Origin: Candidatus Cloacimonadota bacterium
Lineage (GTDB): Bacteria; Cloacimonadota; Cloacimonadia; Cloacimonadales; JAJBBL01
DNA: 47,273 nt
Assembly (NCBI GenBank): GCA_019429305.1
Contig: JAHYIR010000014.1
Coordinates: forward strand, 1-47,273
Direction: 5' to 3'
Every line of letters starts with the position of its first letter. The stretch's first letter is position 1. The notes under the pieces are model-generated. The model made no database searches. It was given only the letters and a program-made list of their open reading frames with translations, and was not told the DNA's origin. The translations under genes and the position numbers were made by a program. This document shows, piece after piece, positions 26,478-42,536 of the stretch.

Positions 26478-29400
26478 CTAATCTAACATAGCCCGATATT
26501 CTGCTGCTTTTACCTCATTGCCCATTTTTTCGTAAGCAGAAGCCATATTCTTACATATCTTTATCGTATCGGGATGCTTTAGACCAAACACTTCGTTATT
26601 TATTGAAAATGCTTGTTCATAGTGTTCTACTGCCTTGAGGTAATCTTTTTTATCAAAGTAATCATTCCCTATGGCATAAAAACAACAACCGGTAGTCGGG
26701 TGACGTTCTCCTAGTATTTTTTTAATAGGAGTTAATGCCTGTAGATGATATTCTAATGCTCTGTCGAAGTTACACATAGAGTAGTAAACATCACCAATAT
26801 TGAAATGAGTCATAATAGTATCAGGATGGTTTTCTCCCATAATCTCTTTCTGGATTACATATTCCTGCTCATAGTATTTTAGAGCGGTTTTCAAATTACC
26901 TTGTGCTAAATGAGCTTCTCCTAAAGCAGCGAGACAAGCAGCAGTATGGGGATGCTTATCACCAACTACCAATCTCATTATCGCCAATGCTTTCTCGCCA
27001 TTCATCACTGCTCGATCATAATCTTTTTTACGGTTTAAAGCCAAACTAAAAATAGCATGATCCGCAGCAGTATTTATATGCTGTTCTCCAAAAAGCTCTT
27101 TATCTATCTGGAGGGCTTTTTCTAAACTAACCAATGCTTCATCATAAAGACCTTTATCAATATAAGCTCTCCCGATGCTTCTCATACAACTTGCAGTCAT
27201 AATGTGCTTATCGCCAAACACTTCTTCACTTATAGATAACGATAGTTTAAAACTATCGATAGCTTTTTCAATCTCTCCGAGTCCATAATATATGTGACCA
27301 ATATTGTGATGTGTTCTGGCAGTTTCTCTATTCCGTTCACCCAGTGCCTCTCTCTGGATTGATAGAGCTTGCTCCATATATTTTATCGCTTCTTTGTCGT
27401 CACCCTTTTCAGCATAGTATATGCTGATGTTGTTGAGAGATTTAGCAATATCCGGATGCCTGTCTCCTAATATCTCTTTGTCTATGTTAAGCGATTGTTC
27501 AAAATATCTCAGTGCAGTATCAAAGTCACCTTTCTGAAGATATACTGCTCCAATGTTATGAATGGTTTTAGCATAATCTTCGTGTCTTTCGCCAAAAAGG
27601 TCTTTGAGAATAGACTCTGATTTTGCTAAGTAAGATAATGCCTGGTCATATTTTCCTGTATCAGAATAGACATTGCCAATACTACAATACGCTATAGAAG
27701 TATCCTTGCTTTTCTCACCTGATGTTTCTTTCCAGATAGATAAGGCTTTTTCGTAATGTGACAGAGCTTGCTCGAACTCCCCCTTAAATGCATAGATCAA
27801 GCCGATGTTTTGATAAACGGATGCAGTATCACTACTTTGCTCACCGTCAAACTCTTGGCGAATATCCAATGCATCTTCAAAACAGTTCATTGCCTGATCG
27901 TATTCGCTTTTATCTCTGTAAACGACTCCGATACCGTTCAAACTTTCTGCTACGTCCGGATGCCGATCACCCAAAATATCCTTCCTGATTGCTAAAGACT
28001 TTTCTAAAAAGTGTAATGCTTTTTCATATTCTGCTTTGCTGCTGTAAACGCTACCGATGCCGAACAAAATCCAGGCAGTATCCTCGTTCTGTTCTCCGTA
28101 ATTCTCTAATTGGATAGACAAAGCTTGCTCATAATTAACTAATGATTGGTTATAGTTGGTTAGAGTGTAGTAAGCTAAGCCCAAATAATTGTAAATCCTG
28201 ACGATCTCAGTGTATCGATCGCCTAAATGTTCTTGAGCAATCTTCAATGCAGATTGATAATAATCGATACTCGTAGCAAGGTGATTTTTCTCCATTTCAT
28301 AGTTGCCAGTTTTTTCGTGATAATCAATCGCCTTAGCCCAAATATCAGCTTTAGAGTAATGTTCGGCGATCTCAGCATATTTAGTTCTGTCTTCCGGATA
28401 GAGTTTCTCCATTATCTCACCAGCGAGACGGTGTAATTTCTTGAGCTGTTTCTTGAGCTGCATGTTATAAACAGTTTCTCTTAAAAGAGCATGACTGAAA
28501 ATATATTTTATCTCACTCAAGGCATACCAGATGTGCTCCTGTTCACCATAGTGCAGTTGGCTCTTGACGATCAGTTCATTCATATCATCGGGACGGTGTT
28601 CCATGGTCTCTATCATTTTACAGAGTACTGCTACGGCAAACTCCAGCCCTAAGACACTGGCTGTCTGCACGGTCTGTTTCAACTCAGCATCTAAACGGTC
28701 TAATCTCGCTACAATCACTGCCTGTACCTCTTTTGGGAGTTCTGCTGTCTGATCTTTCAGGTAGTAAATGTTATCACGTACTTCGAACTTCTCAGTTTCC
28801 TGCAGATATTGTGTAAGTTGCTCTACGATAAAGGGATTGCCTTGAGAAATAGAATAGACATAATCGACAATATCAGATGCCAGATCTTTTTTCAAAATCG
28901 ATACCATTAAATCTTGAGCTTGTGTCTGATCAAGTCCGACAAGCTGAATGGTCTCTGTCAAGACATCAGGATCTAGTTTGATCTGCGGATTGGTGCCGTC
29001 ATCAAGCACACGAGAGTTAAGAATTAACTTGAAAGGGATAGCTGCTGCTCTGCGGGTCAGTATCTGCAGAGTATTTGCTGATTCCTGATCCAGCCAATGC
29101 AAGTCTTCAATAACCAGTATGACCGGTTTGACTGAGCAAAAGATCTCTAAGAGAGATTTGAGAGCAAAACCTTTGACTGCCGGTCTGTATCTGGGGTCCA
29201 GATTGGCATAGATACTCCCTTCCCACTCCAGCCCTATAAGTCCGGCAAGTATAGACTCGATCCTGTCTATCTCCAGCAGCTTTGTGTTCGGTATCTTTAA
29301 TTGCTTCATCCTCTTTTTGAACTCTGCCCAGTTATGGCGGAAGTCTTTTCTGCGTTCTGTAATACTACCGGTCATCTTTGTGGTAAGTAACTGTCTAATC

Positions 29401-32211: not shown

Positions 32212-32381
32212 TCATTATGCTATTCAATATCTCAAGTTCATTTTCAGTTATCTTCACATAACACTTGACCCAAAAGCGTGAATAATGTCGTCCTGGACAC
32301 TAGTAAAGTATAAGAATAAAGAAATAGAGGTTTGGAATGAAAATTAACAGAGTTATCCTGAGTCTTCTAATATGTGGGATG
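32212..32381 (+). repeat. Direct repeat copy B (promoter plus signal-peptide start of PNGase F-like gene)
   Basis: It is the partner of 31094-31263. It ends inside the signal peptide of the gene at 32337, so that gene and the relic share promoter, leader, ribosome site and about 12 codons. Confidence 0.9.
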
Positions 32382-33983
32382 TTGTTACTTTTTCCTGAGG
32401 TAAAAGTGCACTCTGAAACAAACAGTTCTCTTATTGAATCAATAAGGTTATTCAATTTTGAGGGTAATTTGCCGCCTCTGGTTAGTGATGAATATATCAT
32501 CATTGTGGATGGCAGGCGGGCTAAAAATCATAATAACGCAGTACTTTTTTCTCAGGTTATTGATGATTCTGCTGAGATTGAGAGATACAGCTTTCATTTA
32601 CATATAACACCCGGTGCGGAGGGGGCAGGTCTTGCTCTGATCGATCTCGAGCATACCGGCGATGATACACTCTCCTATAAAGCTCTATCCTGGGAACAGC
32701 CTAATTTTACCGGTTCGTTTGGGTTAGGGTTTGATGTTTATAATCCCCGAACTTCCCATTGGTTTGATGAAAACGGAAATTTCTATGGTCGGGAAGAGAG
32801 GGAGATCTCACTGCACTGGGATAACCGGGAGGTTTTCAAGATGCTTTCGCCCATAGAATTTAGATCAGATCCTCTCGAGTTTGATTTTGTCGAATGCGAT
32901 CTGATGATCAGGTATGTCGTGGCAGGCGCAGAGATATCCCTCTACCTGAAAGAGGAATTGATCATTGATAGCTATTTTATTCCGGGGATGGTGCAATATC
33001 ATAAATCTCCCGTTTTTGGCGCTTCAATTGGGGAGTTAACCACGACTGTCATAATCAAGGATTTTGAGATATCAACAGAGGGTCAGAAATCGGAGTTTGC
33101 TCATTTAGCCCGAATTGATCTCTTGCAGGATGAAGTTTTTCATGCCGGAAGGCGCAATATGTCCTCTACAGTTGACTTTCAGGAAATACCCGAAGGTAAT
33201 CACAGAGTTATTATGACTCTTGATCTCGGTGCTCCCGAGGGTGGCTTTTCAGCTTGGGATGTCGGAGCTGCTATTTTCTTGATCGACTCTGACTCTATCC
33301 GTTATGAGGTCTGCAGATATATCACCCCCTACAACAGAGGTTATATCTGGGAGTTCGATGTCTCACATTTTTTGCCGCTGTTTCAGGATGAGAAAGGGCT
33401 CTATGCTGAAGTTAATACCTGGGAAGCAGTAGCAGAAGATCCCGGAGAGCAAAAAGGATGGAAGGTTACGACGTTTCTCGATTTCTATACAGAGAATCAG
33501 GGCTTGGAACCGTTCTATGTGGAAAATCTCTGGAGTGGCTATCTGGAATATGGAAATCCCGAAGATCCGATAGAGAATAAGTTACCGGAGATAAGGGTAG
33601 CAGTACCTTCAGAAGCACGGTCAGGCAGATTACGGATCGTTGTTACAGGTCACGGTATGGGTCCGAATACAGGTGGGGCAGGGGAGTTTATGCCGGCAGA
33701 AAGGACGGTTATAATCAATGGAGTCGAGTTTACCGATCTTCTCTGGAACAGAGACTGCTATCTCAATCCCGTTAGACCACAGGATGGAACCTGGAAGTTT
33801 GACAGAGCCGGTTGGGCACCGGGAAGCATAGTAAATGCCTGGGAAATTGATCTTACAGAATTTGTTCAGAGTTCTGATGAATTGAGTTTACAATACATTC
33901 CAATGGAATACCTAAATGAGAACAGGGGAGATCATCACCCTGCACATCATCTCTTTGAGTCTCAGATAATATTCTTCAAATGA
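32337..33983 (+). CDS. Secreted PNGase F-like protein
   Basis: The 548-aa protein has a signal peptide (about 1-26, ending near KVHS). A concanavalin/LamG-like sheet domain follows (about 35-250; AGLALIDLEH, FGLGFDVYNPRTSHWFD). The C-terminal half (about 260-545) has the two-jelly-roll layout of peptide-N-glycosidase F: VTGHGMGPNTGGAGEFMP, then CYLNPVRPQDGTWKFDRAGW with APG, the conserved core of the PNGase F C-terminal domain. PNGase F removes N-glycans from glycoproteins. I cannot verify its catalytic Asp/Glu residues here, so 'related fold' is safer than 'glycosidase'. There is no sorting tail. It is read from the duplicated promoter and converges with gatD. Confidence 0.8.
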   Translation: MKINRVILSLLICGMLLLFPEVKVHSETNSSLIESIRLFNFEGNLPPLVSDEYIIIVDGRRAKNHNNAVLFSQVIDDSAEIERYSFHLHITPGAEGAGLALIDLEHTGDDTLSYKALSWEQPNFTGSFGLGFDVYNPRTSHWFDENGNFYGREEREISLHWDNREVFKMLSPIEFRSDPLEFDFVECDLMIRYVVAGAEISLYLKEELIIDSYFIPGMVQYHKSPVFGASIGELTTTVIIKDFEISTEGQKSEFAHLARIDLLQDEVFHAGRRNMSSTVDFQEIPEGNHRVIMTLDLGAPEGGFSAWDVGAAIFLIDSDSIRYEVCRYITPYNRGYIWEFDVSHFLPLFQDEKGLYAEVNTWEAVAEDPGEQKGWKVTTFLDFYTENQGLEPFYVENLWSGYLEYGNPEDPIENKLPEIRVAVPSEARSGRLRIVVTGHGMGPNTGGAGEFMPAERTVIINGVEFTDLLWNRDCYLNPVRPQDGTWKFDRAGWAPGSIVNAWEIDLTEFVQSSDELSLQYIPMEYLNENRGDHHPAHHLFESQIIFFK

Positions 33984-34004: not shown

Positions 34005-35387
34005 CTATTTATGAAACTTCCTGATGAACTCTTCCACTTCGGGGATGCCCCCCTGATATATCAGGTACCCGTTATACGGCTCTCCGGCTGTAATATCTCG
34101 TGCTACAGGGGTTAGCATCATTCTCCTCACCTCTTCAGGATCGTCTGTCTGCCCCAATACCCAGCCAAGTTTAATGTATGCTGTTTCCGGGAGCATATTT
34201 TCTGCCGGAACGATCCCATAACTCATCAAGTCACGACCTGTATCATAGACAAACATATGCACAAAACCCCAGAGTGTCTGGACGGTCATATAGATGTGGA
34301 TACCTTTGGCAATTGCTCTTTTTATTGCAGGATAGAGCGGTTTGTTGATATGTCCCAGTCCGGTTCCGATGATAATGATACCCTTATACCTGTTATCTGT
34401 CAGGGAATCGATCATATCGGGGTGCATATTGGGATAATAGTAAACCATGGCAACCCGTTCTTCAAAGTAGGGCAAAACTTTTACTTTCCGGTCTTTACGA
34501 CGCAGATTGTAATCACTCTTTATCGGTTTGATCTCACCGAGTTTTACTGTCGCCAGAGGTGTATCACCAATAGTTCTGAAAGTCGAGCGGTAAGAGGAGT
34601 GCATCTTTCTTACCCTTGTGCCCTGATGGAGTAATCCATATTCATCACTGGTAGGTCCGAACATGCAAACCAACACCTCAGCTATATCGGAATTTCCTGC
34701 TGTATAGGCTGCGTGCATCAGGTTTAATGCCGCATCGGAGGAGGGGCGGTCAGAAGATCTTTGAGAACCGACCATCACAACAGGGATAGGTAGATCCTGC
34801 AACATATATGACAGGGCAGCAGATGTGTAGTGCATGGTATCTGTTCCGTGACCGATTATAATACCGTCAACACCCTTTTCTATCTCTTCACCGATAGAGA
34901 TTGCCAGTTTTTTATACTGCTCAGGCCCCATATTCTCAGAAAAAACCGCAAAGAGTTTTTCAGTCTCCAGGTTACAGATATCTGCCAATTCAGGGACAGC
35001 ACCGTATAACTCTCCCGGTGAGAAAGCAGGTATAACCGCACCAGTTCTATAATCCAATCTCGATGCTATCGTACCACCAGTACCGAGGAGTTTTACTTTC
35101 GGCAGTCCCGGTGTATAGGGGAATTCCTTCTCGGGGATCTTATAATGTGCCTCTTTGAAACTATCCTCTCTCATACTGGTTATTGTCTCGATGTCTATGC
35201 CAACATTATAACCGGTCGGGAGTTTGATAACTATATGCCGGTCATCATCAGTCTCCGATCTCGGCAGGATTATCCCCTGAAACTTTCCCCGGGTGGTTTC
35301 AATCGTACAATTTCCCCAGACTCTCATCTTGAAGGATTTCAGTAATTCTAACGCTCTGCCCTGGTAACCTTTGAAATAATCAAGCAT
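34005..35387 (-). CDS. gatD: Glu-tRNA(Gln) amidotransferase subunit D (archaeal type)
   Basis: The 460-aa glutaminase subunit of GatDE releases ammonia for amidation of Glu-tRNA(Gln). After an N-terminal beta-barrel (about 20-90, typical of GatD and absent from plain asparaginases) it has the L-asparaginase-type core. The catalytic threonines are in GTGGTIASR (about 102-110) and IIGHGTDTMHYTSAAL (about 177-192); GSQRSSDRPSSDAALN follows. Length equals archaeal GatD. Its start overlaps the gatE stop by 8 bp, so the subunits are translated together. A bacterial asparaginase would be about 330 aa and would lack both the N-domain and the partner. Confidence 0.95.
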   Translation of the reverse strand: MLDYFKGYQGRALELLKSFKMRVWGNCTIETTRGKFQGIILPRSETDDDRHIVIKLPTGYNVGIDIETITSMREDSFKEAHYKIPEKEFPYTPGLPKVKLLGTGGTIASRLDYRTGAVIPAFSPGELYGAVPELADICNLETEKLFAVFSENMGPEQYKKLAISIGEEIEKGVDGIIIGHGTDTMHYTSAALSYMLQDLPIPVVMVGSQRSSDRPSSDAALNLMHAAYTAGNSDIAEVLVCMFGPTSDEYGLLHQGTRVRKMHSSYRSTFRTIGDTPLATVKLGEIKPIKSDYNLRRKDRKVKVLPYFEERVAMVYYYPNMHPDMIDSLTDNRYKGIIIIGTGLGHINKPLYPAIKRAIAKGIHIYMTVQTLWGFVHMFVYDTGRDLMSYGIVPAENMLPETAYIKLGWVLGQTDDPEEVRRMMLTPVARDITAGEPYNGYLIYQGGIPEVEEFIRKFHK

Positions 35388-37365
35388 TGCCGTTACCCCC
35401 TCTGATTTCTTTCCTAACCAGCTTCTCTAATTCTGTTAGTGGGATGTTACCGAGAGCATCCTTTCTTAGTCTTCCCATAATCCAGTCCCTCTCAGCCAGA
35501 GGTTGGTACTTTGATTTATGCTTAAATGCCTGATACATCTGGTGCAGGATCGGAATTTCCTTTATGATCTCATCTCTGCTTATTTTATTGTATCCTACGA
35601 GTGTGAGTAGTGACGAGAAGAGCATTTTTGGGTTTTCATACAGTATCGGTAAAATCTCATAGATAATGTCGAAAGCGATATCTTTTGTGGTAATGAAGTT
35701 AATTAATTCCGAGATCCTTTCCGGTTTGAAAGGCAAGGGTCTGTCACCTTGCAGGGATCTCAGATTATGAGCAAACAACAGGGCAACCTTTTTGGGCGGT
35801 AGATTATTATCTTCCGAAATCTTAGATATTACCGGCATCAGGTTATTCCTTAAAATATAGGTATAAGCATCCTGAGGAACAGTCCATTCGGCAAGCTGTT
35901 CAAATCTTTGATGAACCTCTATCGGCAGATTCTTTCTCGCTTCTTCTATCATGTCCGAGGAGATGGAGATTGGTTTAGAATCTGTATCGGGATACATTCT
36001 GTCAGCACCGGGAAGAACCCTTTCAAAGATATTAGTGCCGTTCGCTAAAGACTTTCGTGTCTCATTCGGGACACCACGAAAAGCGAGTAAACATCTCTCC
36101 TCTATGGTCTCAATAGCTGTCTTAAGATCATCTTCGTGTGTCCAGAAGAGAATCTGGGCATCATCTTCGGATGCTTTAAGAATCCGGGCTATTTCCTGCC
36201 ATTCATCAGGGCTGATGGTAGGAGTTAATTCCTCGGAATGGAACATATTCGGTTTCTCGAGACAGGGTATGACCTTCAACCTGTCGGATATCTCGTCGGC
36301 AAAAGTACGCCCCTGCTGGGTGAAGAATGATAAGATGTTTCTAAAACGGGGAAGATTAACAGAGATAAGCAGCCAGTTTTCTTTGGCTGCCTGCTTGATA
36401 ACGGGGATGTGTTTCCACTTCTGGATCTGGAGCTTCTCATAGCCCACAGACCATTTCTTTTCCTCAACACCTTTATCCTTGAGGGCTTTAACGATCCTGA
36501 GCAGGGCGTATTGACGGAAAGCTTCATTATGAGTAAGGATGGGGATCCAAGAGATGTGTGCCACCCCTTTGATCTCTACTCTTGTTCCTCCGGTTACACT
36601 TACATTTACATCCTGACGTGCTGCTCCGATACCTGTCCTTACTCGCCCTGAACTTCTGGCCAGGAAACGTATATACTGACACGCTTCTGCTGCCTCAAAC
36701 GGGGTTAGCATATCGGGGTAGGTCACCGTTTCGATTAGAGGCATACCCAGTCGATCGGTATAATATGTCCGTGTATGCCGGTGATCTGATACCTCACGGC
36801 AACTATCCTCTTCGATACTGAATTGGATGATGCGGATCTTCCTGCTGGAAATAGGGATCTCACCCTCGATGCCAACTATCGTAGTCCGTTGGAACCCTGT
36901 TGGGATACTGCCGTCGAGATATTGCTTGCGGGTGATATGAAGTTCACCGACGATATTCATCTTGAGCAAGAGTGCGATCTCCATCCCGTAAGCTAATGCT
37001 TCTCTGTTCAGGGGGAAGGGTGGAGTATCGTCTATCTCGTAAGTACAGGCAGTTTCGTTCTTGATCCTGTAAACGATTTGCTTTCTTGTTTTAAACTCCA
37101 TCAGTGCCGTGCCGTCATATTCCCCCAATTCACTGAGAGTCGGTCTCATATGCCGTACGATCTCGGCATCATAGATATCAAGGTCGGAATAGATCCCGGC
37201 AGGGCAGCGACAGAAGAGTTTCCGGGAAGTCAGTAATTGCTGATGTACCTCTAAACCGCATTTGAATCCCAATCTCTTATAGGTGTCCGGCGTTGCCGCT
37301 TTCAGATCTACCCATCCGACCTCTTGTCTGGTCTCTAACCAGTTCTTTTCCCATTGGTTTTGCAT
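35380..37365 (-). CDS. gatE: Glu-tRNA(Gln) amidotransferase subunit E (archaeal type)
   Basis: The 661-aa tRNA-binding kinase/amidase subunit has the GatB/GatE cradle opening FKCGLEVHQQL (about 33-43), a CRCP zinc-type pair and TYEIDDTPPFPLN. EEDSCREVSD and GIGAARQDVNVSVTGG then GTRVEIKG (GatE/GatB signature) follow. An inserted region (about 290-425) is consistent with the AspRS-like GAD domain that separates GatE from GatB. A helical YqeY-like tail (about 510-655) completes it. All parts appear present and the length is slightly above typical GatE. AAAGGAAG precedes the ATG. With GatD it would convert Glu-tRNA(Gln) to Gln-tRNA(Gln). The GatE call over GatB rests on length, insert and gatD partnership. 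Confidence 0.95.
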   Translation of the reverse strand: MQNQWEKNWLETRQEVGWVDLKAATPDTYKRLGFKCGLEVHQQLLTSRKLFCRCPAGIYSDLDIYDAEIVRHMRPTLSELGEYDGTALMEFKTRKQIVYRIKNETACTYEIDDTPPFPLNREALAYGMEIALLLKMNIVGELHITRKQYLDGSIPTGFQRTTIVGIEGEIPISSRKIRIIQFSIEEDSCREVSDHRHTRTYYTDRLGMPLIETVTYPDMLTPFEAAEACQYIRFLARSSGRVRTGIGAARQDVNVSVTGGTRVEIKGVAHISWIPILTHNEAFRQYALLRIVKALKDKGVEEKKWSVGYEKLQIQKWKHIPVIKQAAKENWLLISVNLPRFRNILSFFTQQGRTFADEISDRLKVIPCLEKPNMFHSEELTPTISPDEWQEIARILKASEDDAQILFWTHEDDLKTAIETIEERCLLAFRGVPNETRKSLANGTNIFERVLPGADRMYPDTDSKPISISSDMIEEARKNLPIEVHQRFEQLAEWTVPQDAYTYILRNNLMPVISKISEDNNLPPKKVALLFAHNLRSLQGDRPLPFKPERISELINFITTKDIAFDIIYEILPILYENPKMLFSSLLTLVGYNKISRDEIIKEIPILHQMYQAFKHKSKYQPLAERDWIMGRLRKDALGNIPLTELEKLVRKEIRGGNGNA

Positions 37366-38183: not shown

Positions 38184-41100
38184 CTATGAATAGTGGTCTT
38201 CTAATTCGGCTCTGTATTTAGTTGTTTTTTCCTGATCACCTAATTCTTCGGCAGTTTTAATTAAATTCTTGATAATTTCAATTGTTTGTTGATTTCTTTT
38301 GCCCAGAGTTTTATCAAATATGGGGAGCGCATCTTCATAATATTGCAGTGTTCTTTTAAGATCCCCTTTCCGGGCATGGATCTTGCCGATACTTTGTAGA
38401 GTATAAGCAGTGTGTATGTGATTCTTGCCGAGTGTTTCATTATAAATTGACAACGCATTTTCCTGATAATTTAAGGCTTTGTCAAGATCCCCTTTACCGA
38501 GATAGATATCACCTATGTTGTGATAGCTGTCTGCTATGCTCGAATGTCTCTCTTCTAATGATTCTCTCTTGATGGTGAGAACCTGTTCATGAAGGCTCAA
38601 AGCCTTATCATATTCACCCTTACCAGAGTAAGCATCACCCAGATAGTATAATGTACCAGCAGTCCGTAAATGCCCCTTTCCAAAAATCTCTTCATCGATG
38701 GATAATGCCTGTTCGTGATAGATCAGGGCATTGTTATTATCATCCTTTTTATGGTAGGATAGACCGATTAAATTAAGAGTAATAGCAATTTGGGGATGCC
38801 GTTCACCCAGGATCTCCTTCTGGACAGAGAGCCCTTTCTCCAGATAAGATAGTGCTGTATTGAATTTTCCAAGGTGAATACAGACATCAGCCATAGTACA
38901 TAGGATTGTTGCAGTACGCGAATGCCCTTCACCAGCAATCTCTTTATAGATTTCATAGCCCTTTTTCAGACAATGCAGAGCTCGATCATACTTACCCATA
39001 AAGGAGTAGTTAAGACCGATATTTACATAACTGTCGGCTGTGGAATAATACTTCTCGCCCAGAAATTCACGCCTGATCGAGAGCGCCTCTTCCATATATT
39101 GCAAGCCTCTGTTCAGATCACCTTTAGATGAGTAAATAGAGCCAATGTTGCACAGGCAATCAGCAACGCTGGGATGTCTCTCTCCGAAGACCTCTTTGAA
39201 ACAGGAGAGACTCTTTTCATAACAGGGTAAAGCGCTGTTATAATCTCCTTTATAGTAGTACACATTACCCATATTCATAACACCTGTAGCAGTTTGTGAA
39301 TGCCTCTCACCCAAAAAGTTCATCCATATTGCCACCGCCTGCTCAATATGAATCATGGCTTTATCGTAGTCACCTTTGGAACAATAGACATTACAGATGT
39401 TATTCAGGGCTATAGCGCTCTTTAACTGCCCCTCCTCAGAGTGCTCACTGTAGATTGATAATGCCTTCTGATAACAGTCCAGAGCCTCATCGTATCTCTG
39501 CTTGTAGCTGCAAACGACACCAATATTGCTCAGGCTGGCAGCGGTTAATAGATGTTTTTCACCGAGCGTGACTTTTCTAATAGACCAAGCCTTGCGGAAA
39601 TAGATCAAAGCATCTTCATAATCACCCCTGTCTCTCTGAAGAACACCTATATCGTTAAAGGTTGAAGCAGTATCCGGGTGCAGCTCACCAAGTACTTCTA
39701 CCCTGATTGCCAGAGCCATCTCATAATAGTATAGCGCTCTGTCATATACCCCCTTATCATGATAAACCGAGCCGACATCATTCAAGCAGTCGGCTGTATC
39801 GGGGTGTTCATTACCCAACGATTCCCTACGAATAGCCAACGCCTCCTCGAAGTACAGCAAAGCCTGATCATACTCACTTCTTGCAAAATATACAGAACCG
39901 ATTTTGCTAAGGATGGCAGCCGTTTCAGCACCTCTTTTGTCATATTGAGCTCGGGTTATACTCAAGGCTGCATCGTAATAATGCATACTCGGAGCGAAGT
40001 GATAACGATCTATTTCAAAATCACCCGCTTTAGTGAAATACAGGAACGCTTTCTCCCGATCTTCCGCTTTATCGTAATGTTGGGCAATCTCGCCAAACAT
40101 AGTTTTATCTTCCGTGTACATTCTCTCCATTACCTCTGCTGCCATCAAATGGAGTCTTTTAAGCTGTTTTTTCAACTGCATATTGTAAACAGCCTCTCTC
40201 AAGATGGCATGGCTGAAGATATATTTAATCTCGCTCAAGGCGTGCCAGATATTCTGCTTTTCCCCAAAATAGAGATGGCTTTTGACTATCAGATCGTTCA
40301 AACTTGCAGAACGGTACTGCATCTTTTCGATCATCTTGCAAAGTACTTCCACGACAAATTCCACACCGAGAACGCTGGCTGCCTGGATCGTTTGTTTTAA
40401 CTCTGAATCGAGTCGGTCCAGGTGTGCCACGATAACACCCTGTAATTCATTAGGTAGTTCTGATGCCTGATCTTTCAGTTCATAACAATTCTCTTGCACG
40501 TCGAGTCTGTTCGTTTCCAACAGATATTTTGTGAGTTGTTCGATTATAAAGGGATTACCCTGAGACAAAGAATATACATATTTACGGAAATCGGGGGTCA
40601 ACTCTTTCTGCAGGATAGTTTTCATCAAATTTGCAGTCTGGGTCTGATTTAGCCCTTCAAGTTTGATAGTTTCGGTAACCACATCGGGGTCAAGCCTTAC
40701 TTGTGGATAACTACCATCATCGATAATCCGTGAAGTCAGGATTATTTTAAAAGGGATATTAGTCGCCCTGCGGGTCAGGATTTGTAGGGTTTCTGCTGAC
40801 TCCTTATCTAACCAGTGTAAATCCTCGATAACCAGAATGACCGGTTTGAAGAGGCACAAAACCTCTATTAACGATTTGAGGGCGAATCCCTTGATTGCAG
40901 GTTTGTATTTCGGCTCAAGATTTGCGTAGATACTACCTTCCCATTCCAGGCCGATCAGCCCTGCCAGAATTGATTCGATTCTATTCAACTCGCTGATTAT
41001 CACCTTACTTTTTGTTAATCTTTTGACCTTTTTCTGGAAGTCAGCCCAATTTTGACGGAAATCTTTACGACGTTCAGAGATAGTACCGACCGAACTTGTA

Positions 41101-42536
41101 GTGAAGAGTTTTCTTACCCAGTACGCATATGGATTCAAGGATTGCCGCTGAATGGAATCGGTTTCTAAAATATAAAAGTCGGTTTTCTTTCCCATTTTCT
41201 TTCGCAATTCGTTGATCAGGCGCGTTTTACCCTGTCCCGCCTCGCCATATAGATAAGTCACACCGGCAAAATTGCCCTGCCGGAGAGGTTCACAACTATC
41301 TACCAGCCTCTTCAACTGGGATCTTCTGCCGATAAGTTTTTTACTATAATGAGGTTTCCTGAGCCAATACTGACCCGGAATCAATTTAAAGACCGTTATC
41401 GGTTTACGAGAGCCCTCAAGTTTAATCCTGTCCAAAACCTCGAAGTTTATCGAGTCACCCGCCTCATCACGAATAGATCTGTCAAGCCAGACCTCACCCC
41501 ATTCTGCTCGCTTCATACAGCTATGAGCAAGGTTAACAGATATCCCGACCGCAGTATATTCCGCACGCTTACTGGAACCGATAAAACCGATATATGATCT
41601 CCCGTGAGAGAGTCCGACTCTGATCTTCTTGCCATACATTAACTGCACCTCTGAAACAAAATCTAAGGCGAAGGTGCAGAATTTCTCATAAGCAACAGGT
41701 GCGCCAAATAAAACTAAGCCGACCCAACCCTGCTCTGAGCAATCTATATTGTTGAAATAACCACCATACTTTTTGCAGAGATCCAATATCTCGCGAATAT
41801 GCTCCTCCTGCGGTTCAGCAAGATTTATGAAGCAGGATAGAACGTCCCGAAATTCACCCTCCGTTTGCAGGTCTGATATCTGCTCAGGTATGAAGAGTTT
41901 CTGAGAGAGGCATCTGTAAGAGACATCGGTCGGGGTATCCGGGAGTTTGGATCCTTTTATGATGTGATAACGTTGATCGATTTGAGTTGAAGTAATGAGT
42001 TTTTTATCATAATTAGTTAGAACATCTTTCTCGATAACTATCCTGTTTGGTTTCGAGCGTCTCCTCGCTTCAACTGATCCTATCAAAGCCTCACCTGAGA
42101 ACCAGTAAACGAATCTCTCTCTGGCAGGTATGATCCTCCATTTTATTACCCCTTTTGAGAGACCTATGCTTGCCGTAATTTCAAAGTCTCCATATTCTGT
42201 TTTATGCTTTCCTCCGCTCAAAAAGAAATCCCTGATTTCGAGAGCAGCATTGATCGAACCATCACCCTTCGCCAGAGGAAAAACTGCCGTAAATGAATCT
42301 ACGGCGAATCCCGAGATGAAACCACCACGTCTCTTTACAGAATCAAAAGATGAACTGAAAAACTTATTTATAGCATTGGTTAAGACCTCTATACTCTCTT
42401 CGGATTGCTTTGACAAAGTAGCAGAAAATTTCGAAAACCCTTGCATATAAACATTCAGGACATAAGCATCAAAGCACCCTGCATATTCTTTTTCTCTCGC
42501 TTTCCTTAGTATCAAATTGGGAACTAAACAACGCAT
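38184..42536 (-). CDS. Paralogue of the sAC-like protein with degenerate cyclase active site
   Basis: The 1450-aa protein is collinear with the 26.5-30.8 kb protein: C1, C2, ATPase and about 14 kinesin-light-chain-type TPRs. The first 341 residues align without any gap. Key cyclase positions differ. The first metal Asp is Tyr (Y30 in VLNVYMQGF), the substrate Lys is Gln (Q269 in CSEQGW) and the transition-state Arg is Ser (S339 in VNLAHS). D80, T328 and N335 remain. The ATPase is intact (GEAGQGKT; VILVIEDLHWLD). I infer a pseudo-cyclase that still binds ATP through the AAA module and proteins through its TPRs, perhaps as sensor or partner of the active paralogue. GGGAGGTAAT gives strong translation. 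Confidence 0.92.
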   Translation of the reverse strand: MRCLVPNLILRKAREKEYAGCFDAYVLNVYMQGFSKFSATLSKQSEESIEVLTNAINKFFSSSFDSVKRRGGFISGFAVDSFTAVFPLAKGDGSINAALEIRDFFLSGGKHKTEYGDFEITASIGLSKGVIKWRIIPARERFVYWFSGEALIGSVEARRRSKPNRIVIEKDVLTNYDKKLITSTQIDQRYHIIKGSKLPDTPTDVSYRCLSQKLFIPEQISDLQTEGEFRDVLSCFINLAEPQEEHIREILDLCKKYGGYFNNIDCSEQGWVGLVLFGAPVAYEKFCTFALDFVSEVQLMYGKKIRVGLSHGRSYIGFIGSSKRAEYTAVGISVNLAHSCMKRAEWGEVWLDRSIRDEAGDSINFEVLDRIKLEGSRKPITVFKLIPGQYWLRKPHYSKKLIGRRSQLKRLVDSCEPLRQGNFAGVTYLYGEAGQGKTRLINELRKKMGKKTDFYILETDSIQRQSLNPYAYWVRKLFTTSSVGTISERRKDFRQNWADFQKKVKRLTKSKVIISELNRIESILAGLIGLEWEGSIYANLEPKYKPAIKGFALKSLIEVLCLFKPVILVIEDLHWLDKESAETLQILTRRATNIPFKIILTSRIIDDGSYPQVRLDPDVVTETIKLEGLNQTQTANLMKTILQKELTPDFRKYVYSLSQGNPFIIEQLTKYLLETNRLDVQENCYELKDQASELPNELQGVIVAHLDRLDSELKQTIQAASVLGVEFVVEVLCKMIEKMQYRSASLNDLIVKSHLYFGEKQNIWHALSEIKYIFSHAILREAVYNMQLKKQLKRLHLMAAEVMERMYTEDKTMFGEIAQHYDKAEDREKAFLYFTKAGDFEIDRYHFAPSMHYYDAALSITRAQYDKRGAETAAILSKIGSVYFARSEYDQALLYFEEALAIRRESLGNEHPDTADCLNDVGSVYHDKGVYDRALYYYEMALAIRVEVLGELHPDTASTFNDIGVLQRDRGDYEDALIYFRKAWSIRKVTLGEKHLLTAASLSNIGVVCSYKQRYDEALDCYQKALSIYSEHSEEGQLKSAIALNNICNVYCSKGDYDKAMIHIEQAVAIWMNFLGERHSQTATGVMNMGNVYYYKGDYNSALPCYEKSLSCFKEVFGERHPSVADCLCNIGSIYSSKGDLNRGLQYMEEALSIRREFLGEKYYSTADSYVNIGLNYSFMGKYDRALHCLKKGYEIYKEIAGEGHSRTATILCTMADVCIHLGKFNTALSYLEKGLSVQKEILGERHPQIAITLNLIGLSYHKKDDNNNALIYHEQALSIDEEIFGKGHLRTAGTLYYLGDAYSGKGEYDKALSLHEQVLTIKRESLEERHSSIADSYHNIGDIYLGKGDLDKALNYQENALSIYNETLGKNHIHTAYTLQSIGKIHARKGDLKRTLQYYEDALPIFDKTLGKRNQQTIEIIKNLIKTAEELGDQEKTTKYRAELEDHYS

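Follow-up and report, generated by a model that had tools for sequence, protein, structure and literature searches.

The window (here the whole 47,273-nucleotide stretch of DNA analysed, from a Candidatus Cloacimonadota bacterium) carries two giant genes of the soluble adenylyl cyclase (sAC) type, P1 and P2, related to the human enzyme that is regulated by bicarbonate; they are listed with their features in Table 1. A Pfam scan gave the same domain order for both proteins: a cyclase head of C1 and C2 halves, followed by an AAA_16 ATPase and then an extended TPR region. Pairwise alignment of P1 with P2 runs without gaps over roughly the first 829 residues (61% identity), extending the gap-free alignment of the first 341 residues that had been described in an earlier note on this DNA; the open reading frame, strand and length of P2 were also as described there. 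No operon link between P1 and P2 was found. Exactly three giants of this type are present in the genome, the third (P3) lying on another contig.

Table 1. Positions of the giant genes and their features (window coordinates, except for P3, which is given by locus and position on its own contig)
Feature	Position	Strand	Remarks
P2, giant probable pseudo-cyclase, 1450 aa	38184..42536	minus	C1-C2 cyclase head, AAA_16 ATPase, helical arm, 14 TPR units
P1, intact paralogue, 1446 aa	26478..30818	minus	D30, D80, K269, N335 and R339 all present
P3, third giant, 1404 aa	L055:5223-9437, contig 1		genome search
P2 C1 half of head, residues 1-200	41937..42536	minus	sAC alignments, AlphaFold model, fold search
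P2 C2 half of head, residues 205-390	41367..41924	minus	domain scan, sAC alignments, AlphaFold model, fold search
P2 Walker A GEAGQGKT, residues 431-438	41223..41246	minus
P2 Walker B VILVIEDLHW, residues 566-575	40812..40841	minus
P2 TPR array, 14 x 42 residues, 830-1417	38286..40049	minus
P1 TPR array, 14 units	26568..28331	minus	register as in P2, no unit-by-unit correspondence
P2 Y30 for metal Asp (human sAC D47)	42447..42449	minus	TAT vs GAT in P1
P2 V79-D80	42297..42302	minus	second metal Asp (sAC D99) kept; Gly before D80 replaced by Val (G79V)
P2 Q269 for adenine-binding Lys (sAC K334)	41730..41732	minus	CAG vs AAG in P1; variable in relatives
P2 N335 kept (sAC N412)	41532..41534	minus
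P2 S339 for transition-state Arg (sAC R416)	41520..41522	minus	AGC vs CGT in P1

In P2, a P-loop ATPase with Walker A and Walker B motifs is flanked by an effector domain on one side and a repeat sensor on the other, the arrangement by which STAND proteins are recognised (profile scores of 64 bits for AAA_16 and 80 bits for TPR_MalT). As read from this architecture, ligand-driven ADP/ATP exchange and oligomerisation would be predicted for P2. The head has the C1-C2 pair of sAC in one chain (profile E 1e-58). AlphaFold modelling of P2 residues 1-395 with 28 relatives yielded an sAC-like structure with a pLDDT of 89.5 and a pTM of 0.87, and the first 24 PDB matches in a fold search with this model were all human sAC, at TM of about 0.82. 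The model indicates that the family fold suits the P2 sequence, which falls short of proving that P2 folds.

The catalytic site of the P2 head

Alignment of P1 with human sAC pairs D30, D80, K269, N335 and R339 with D47, D99, K334, N412 and R416, respectively, and the family profile gives an identical register; the numbering and roles of these human residues follow the sAC structures. P1 has all five residues characteristic of sAC, namely two metal-binding aspartates in C1 and a lysine, an asparagine and an arginine in C2, whereas P2 has Y30, D80, Q269, N335 and S339. The three substitutions proposed earlier (D30Y, K269Q and R339S) are therefore present in P2 and fall at the equivalents of sAC D47, K334 and R416. 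Since catalytic residues are missing, P2 is filed as an sAC relative with a degenerate site rather than as a cyclase.

The three substitutions do not carry equal weight. D30, D80, N335 and R339 are each at least 90% conserved throughout the phylum and rarely replaced; two of them, and G79 as well, are altered in P2. The K269 position, on the other hand, is often occupied by H, N, S, G, L or D in relatives, so that K269Q is weak, non-diagnostic evidence and loss of this lysine was rejected as a diagnostic mark. Comparison of the catalytic with the other conserved sites in P2 (2/4 versus 5/51) was not significant by Fisher's test (p=0.07); a version with G79 added (3/5), chosen after the data had been seen, gave p=0.012. 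Sequencing error was rejected as the source of the changes, as P2 differs from P1 at hundreds of further positions. Judged by these residues, the P2 head is very probably catalytically dead and can hardly make cAMP. At the position of K95, the bicarbonate-site lysine of human sAC, P1 has V76 and P2 has G76.

Many class III cyclases are heterodimers in which the partner has a degenerate site (PMC8815786). The C1 half of P2 lacks the D47 equivalent and its C2 half lacks the equivalents of K334 and R416, so that a site assembled from P2 and P1 would be incomplete either way. The idea that P2 completes the P1 active site by swapping cyclase halves was therefore rejected, and the heterodimer-partner role suggested in the earlier note is disfavoured in this form. 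The roles left are decoy action, scaffolding by P2 on its own and regulation by way of the ATPase-arm region.

Constraint, rate and turnover in the giants and their relatives

P2 has no orthologue in the sampled genomes, where a scan with P2 gave only a distant TPR match, and its maintenance was therefore read from its divergence to P1. The P2 frame is open across 1450 codons at about 50% overall divergence. Pairwise fits for each domain, a check that the earlier note had called for, gave a P1-P2 omega of about 0.13 in the cyclase region and 0.12 in the ATPase, which indicates purifying selection; omega=1 was rejected in both (2 delta lnL of 160 and 157, respectively). Synonymous sites are near saturation, so these values are rough and their direction is the result; in the TPR region and in all comparisons with P3 the sites are saturated and only an omega below 1 is usable. 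A three-branch codon model for the TPR region did not converge (omega 3.7, with a likelihood poorer than that of the constrained fit) and was discarded.

The P2 head has not been constrained as tightly as its ATPase. Branch lengths, estimated under a fixed topology separately for the cyclase and the ATPase-arm, were 0.226 and 0.212 for P1, 0.547 and 0.305 for P2, and 1.524 and 0.665 for P3. The corresponding cyclase/ATPase ratios (with 95% intervals) are 1.06 (0.54-1.81), 1.78 (1.28-2.62) and 2.32 (1.71-3.51): the head outpaces the ATPase in P2 as well as in P3. The contrast between P2 and P1 is suggestive, the P2 ratio being the higher in 94 of 100 bootstraps and the interval of the ratio of ratios being 0.94-3.62. 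Identity between P1 and P2 is 66% in the ATPase and 58% in the cyclase, an order inverted with respect to other pairs. In each of 15 further pairs diverged to a similar extent, which share members and hence are not independent, ATPase identity trails cyclase identity by 5 points or more, whereas here it leads by 8. The nearest 16 relatives share 55 conserved columns, of which 9 are changed in P2 and 4 in P1. The faster head means that relaxed constraint accounts for part of the pattern, so that selection for a new role is not the whole explanation. The earlier view that P2 has been selected for a non-catalytic role and is not decaying thus holds as regards the open frame, the low omega, the fold model and the Walker A and B motifs, which are intact as had been stated, and has to be tempered for the partly relaxed head.

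The TPR array followed a different course. Both P1 and P2 have 14 TPR units of 42 residues each with identical start positions, and P3 has 12 clear units in the same register. Alignment of units 2-14 between P1 and P2 gave a diagonal score of 198 against 190 expected (p=0.16); unit-by-unit correspondence has been lost, although the 829 residues upstream of the array are 61% identical. All TPRs had been described as intact, which is correct for repeat number and consensus but not for positional homology, and the statement that the rest of the protein was kept fails for the array, which has turned over. Such turnover or exchange is not peculiar to dead heads, as it also occurs in catalytically intact pairs: L098 and L136 are 87% identical in the ATPase and 32% in the TPR region, while in many other pairs TPR identity is close to cyclase identity. 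Positions 2, 5, 9, 12 and 13 of the TPR line its concave ligand face (PMC1261162). These correspond to positions 3, 6, 10, 13 and 14 of the units defined here, and each of the five ranks within the top seven of the 42 for variability (p=2.5e-5). Any TPR that binds a ligand would be expected to vary at its concave positions, and the finding supports the array as a putative binding surface.

The tree places P1 and P2 as sisters (100/74) with P3 next (100/95). The five catalytic positions of P3 read T, E, K, K and Q, and it is more degenerate than P2. Since P1 has kept its site and P2 and P3 carry different replacements, each of these two lost the site independently; the ATPase motifs are intact in all three giants. 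This comparison is drawn from one draft genome. For a wider view, homologues were gathered across 125 genomes of the phylum. The resulting alignment has 97 rows and represents 61 genomes; some rows are partial, and a few belong to other types of cyclase. All five catalytic residues are present in 66 rows. A metal aspartate is missing in P2, P3, L041 and L052, and L116, whose C1 half is incompletely covered, lacks the C2 residues too. The tree groups L041 with L052 as sisters, so that these two probably reflect a single loss. The arginine alone is missing in L065, L135, L110 and L113. L113 is interrupted by an in-frame stop and could be a true pseudogene. L053, L054 and L001, other cyclase types that align in C2 only, were left out of the loss count.

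Walker A is retained in the degenerate L041, L052 and L116, which points to parallel losses: by its residues, at least one lineage beyond P2 and P3 has lost the catalytic site and kept Walker A. An intact copy lies alongside the degenerate one in five of the eight genomes that have a degenerate copy, to which extent the prediction that degenerate copies accompany intact ones holds. In G048 and G078, both incomplete draft genomes, a degenerate copy was found and no intact copy was detected.

Possible roles of P2 and known relatives

P2 and P3 are intact proteins with conserved ATPase motifs and fully diverged sensor arrays, and are therefore probably regulators and not broken genes. That P2 in particular is a maintained non-catalytic sensor or regulator we regard as highly probable. 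We propose that P2 is an ATP-switched TPR sensor with a dead cyclase output, probably regulating P1 or acting as a scaffold, a reading to which we assign a probability of about 0.55. According to this model, the TPR array of P2 would bind a ligand or partner other than that of P1, binding would be linked to the ATP switch, and an interaction rather than cAMP would serve as the output. P2 could then hetero-oligomerise with P1 through the ATPase-arm region and tune the P1 cyclase. This route is preferred because the ATPase-arm is the best conserved region and STAND-type ATPases oligomerise, as is established for MalT and the NLR-type STAND ATPases. The identity of the partner as P1 is the weakest step of the model and is put forward tentatively.

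A less likely alternative is that P2 acts without P1, as an ATP-switched TPR scaffold in which the cyclase fold serves as an autoinhibitory lid or structural cap. The conservation of the Walker motifs and arm ahead of a faster-evolving head would fit such a role, as would the degenerate copies of G048 and G078; however, the P2 head is still under purifying selection, most genomes of this kind do have an intact copy, and these two are incomplete drafts. It is rather improbable that P2 is a decoy or inhibitor, which would compete with P1 for ligand or draw it into dead complexes. A dead copy of a signalling enzyme that retains an oligomerisation ATPase would have the usual make-up of a dominant-negative paralogue, but the TPR arrays of P2 and P1 are unlike unit by unit, which makes competition for one ligand less likely. 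Early decay towards a pseudogene is very improbable, for although the P2 branch is faster than that of P1 in every domain, the 1450-codon frame is open, omega is about 0.13, and the ATPase motifs and TPR consensus are intact. Equally hard to credit is a P2 that is still catalytic through another metal arrangement or in another reaction: D80 and N335 are retained and a few relatives lack the arginine or the lysine alone, but P2 has lost both a metal aspartate and the transition-state arginine, and the two-metal mechanism of class III cyclases requires both aspartates.

Returning to the proposed ATP-switched sensor, several known proteins offer points of comparison. Like P2, human sAC (ADCY10) has two tandem cyclase domains per chain, on which the P2 model superposes (TM 0.82 by query), and it carries an ATPase and a repeat-containing C-terminal part. 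It differs in having D47, K334 and R416, which lack equivalents in P2, and K95, which lacks one in both P1 and P2; the TPRs of P1 and P2, unlike human sAC, are of the 42-residue kinesin type. To our knowledge, the role of the ATPase-repeat part of human sAC is poorly understood, and one intact giant beside two independently killed ones provides a natural comparison for a role of the ATPase-TPR part beyond cAMP. Pseudo-enzyme partners are well known among kinases; those of sAC-type cyclases are little described, and a search of the available literature for 'pseudocyclase' returned no match.

One precedent is found in Mycobacterium tuberculosis, whose Mclx1, Mclx2 and Mclx3 (Rv0386, Rv1358 and Rv2488c) comprise one active and two degenerate cyclase-ATPase paralogues, for which a response to ATP or cAMP without catalysis has been proposed (PMC4452763). 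As with the three giants, one copy is active and two are degenerate, each with a cyclase domain and an AAA/NB-ARC ATPase. The Mclx proteins, however, have only one cyclase domain and end in a DNA-binding LuxR helix-turn-helix, in place of the C1-C2 pair and TPR array of the giants; no HTH family was found in the Pfam scan of P2, the C-terminus of which is TPR. Mclx2 and Mclx3 are thus a close precedent, and what is new here is the sAC-type C1-C2-ATPase-TPR architecture. On a larger scale, the sAC-type giants of the phylum might be modular, NLR-like sensors in which arrays are re-made, the ATPase is kept and heads are repeatedly killed, one active member being served by dead-headed paralogues in a hetero-oligomeric network; we consider this unlikely as it stands.

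Other likenesses are more distant. A class III cyclase-like protein of Pseudomonas aeruginosa (PDB 6yii) has a cyclase-like fold and, according to its PDB title, binds ATP non-enzymatically; it ranked 44 in the P2 fold search with a TM of 0.61, far weaker than sAC. The TOMM system kinase/cyclase fusion protein (TIGR03903) aligns over the cyclase C2, the ATPase and the next helical region, but scores 114-140 against a cut-off of 706, and its kinase domain is absent here. A role in Pycsar defence was not favoured, as the match of P2 to the Pycsar cyclase (PycC) family is weak and generic (E 5e-4); no Pycsar effector was recognised in the partly scanned neighbourhood. The remaining cAMP machinery found in the genome consists of one transmembrane class III cyclase, which from its sequence appears to be CHASE2-like, and one cNMP-binding domain protein, in which that domain is fused to a histidine-kinase-like region.

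Additional copies with degenerate cyclase sites

The genome encodes a third sAC-type giant, P3, which carries T/E/K/K/Q at the five catalytic positions (D47, D99, K334, N412 and R416 of human soluble adenylyl cyclase, sAC). Judged by sequence, P3 is a second pseudo-cyclase of this genome, its loss being independent of that in P2, the degenerate giant of the window. The homologues L041 (genome G054) and L052 (G048) form an additional degenerate clade, with E/D/N/E/K and R/D/S/L/E, respectively, at these sites; both retain the ATPase Walker A motif despite their degenerate cyclase sites. The L113 homologue (G079), which has an in-frame stop and a Phe at the R416 position, may be a true pseudogene.

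TPR arrays and a cNMP-binding protein

Between L098 (G077) and L136 (G062), identity is 78% in the cyclase and 87% in the ATPase, but just 32% in the TPR region, suggesting that the array was exchanged or re-amplified in this pair. Just one cNMP-binding domain was found in the P1/P2 genome, and it is fused to a histidine-kinase-like region (assigned by eye), not to a Crp-type DNA-binding domain.

Genes between the giants

Feature coordinates
Feature	Position	Strand	Location
Protein with PNGase F-like C-terminal domain (N-glycanase_C)	32337-33983	plus	between P1 (intact cyclase site) and P2
GatD and GatE	34005-37365	minus	
P3 (1404 aa)	L055:5223-9437		own genome, contig 1
cNMP-binding domain protein	L066:1402-2535		own genome, contig 3

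This bacterial genome carries an archaeal-type tRNA amidotransferase, GatD/GatE. Since only one GatB/GatE catalytic domain was found in it and GatC is missing, GatDE appears to replace GatABC. GatD_N was detected in 46 of 123 genomes from the phylum; among 14 control genomes, it occurs in archaea only.
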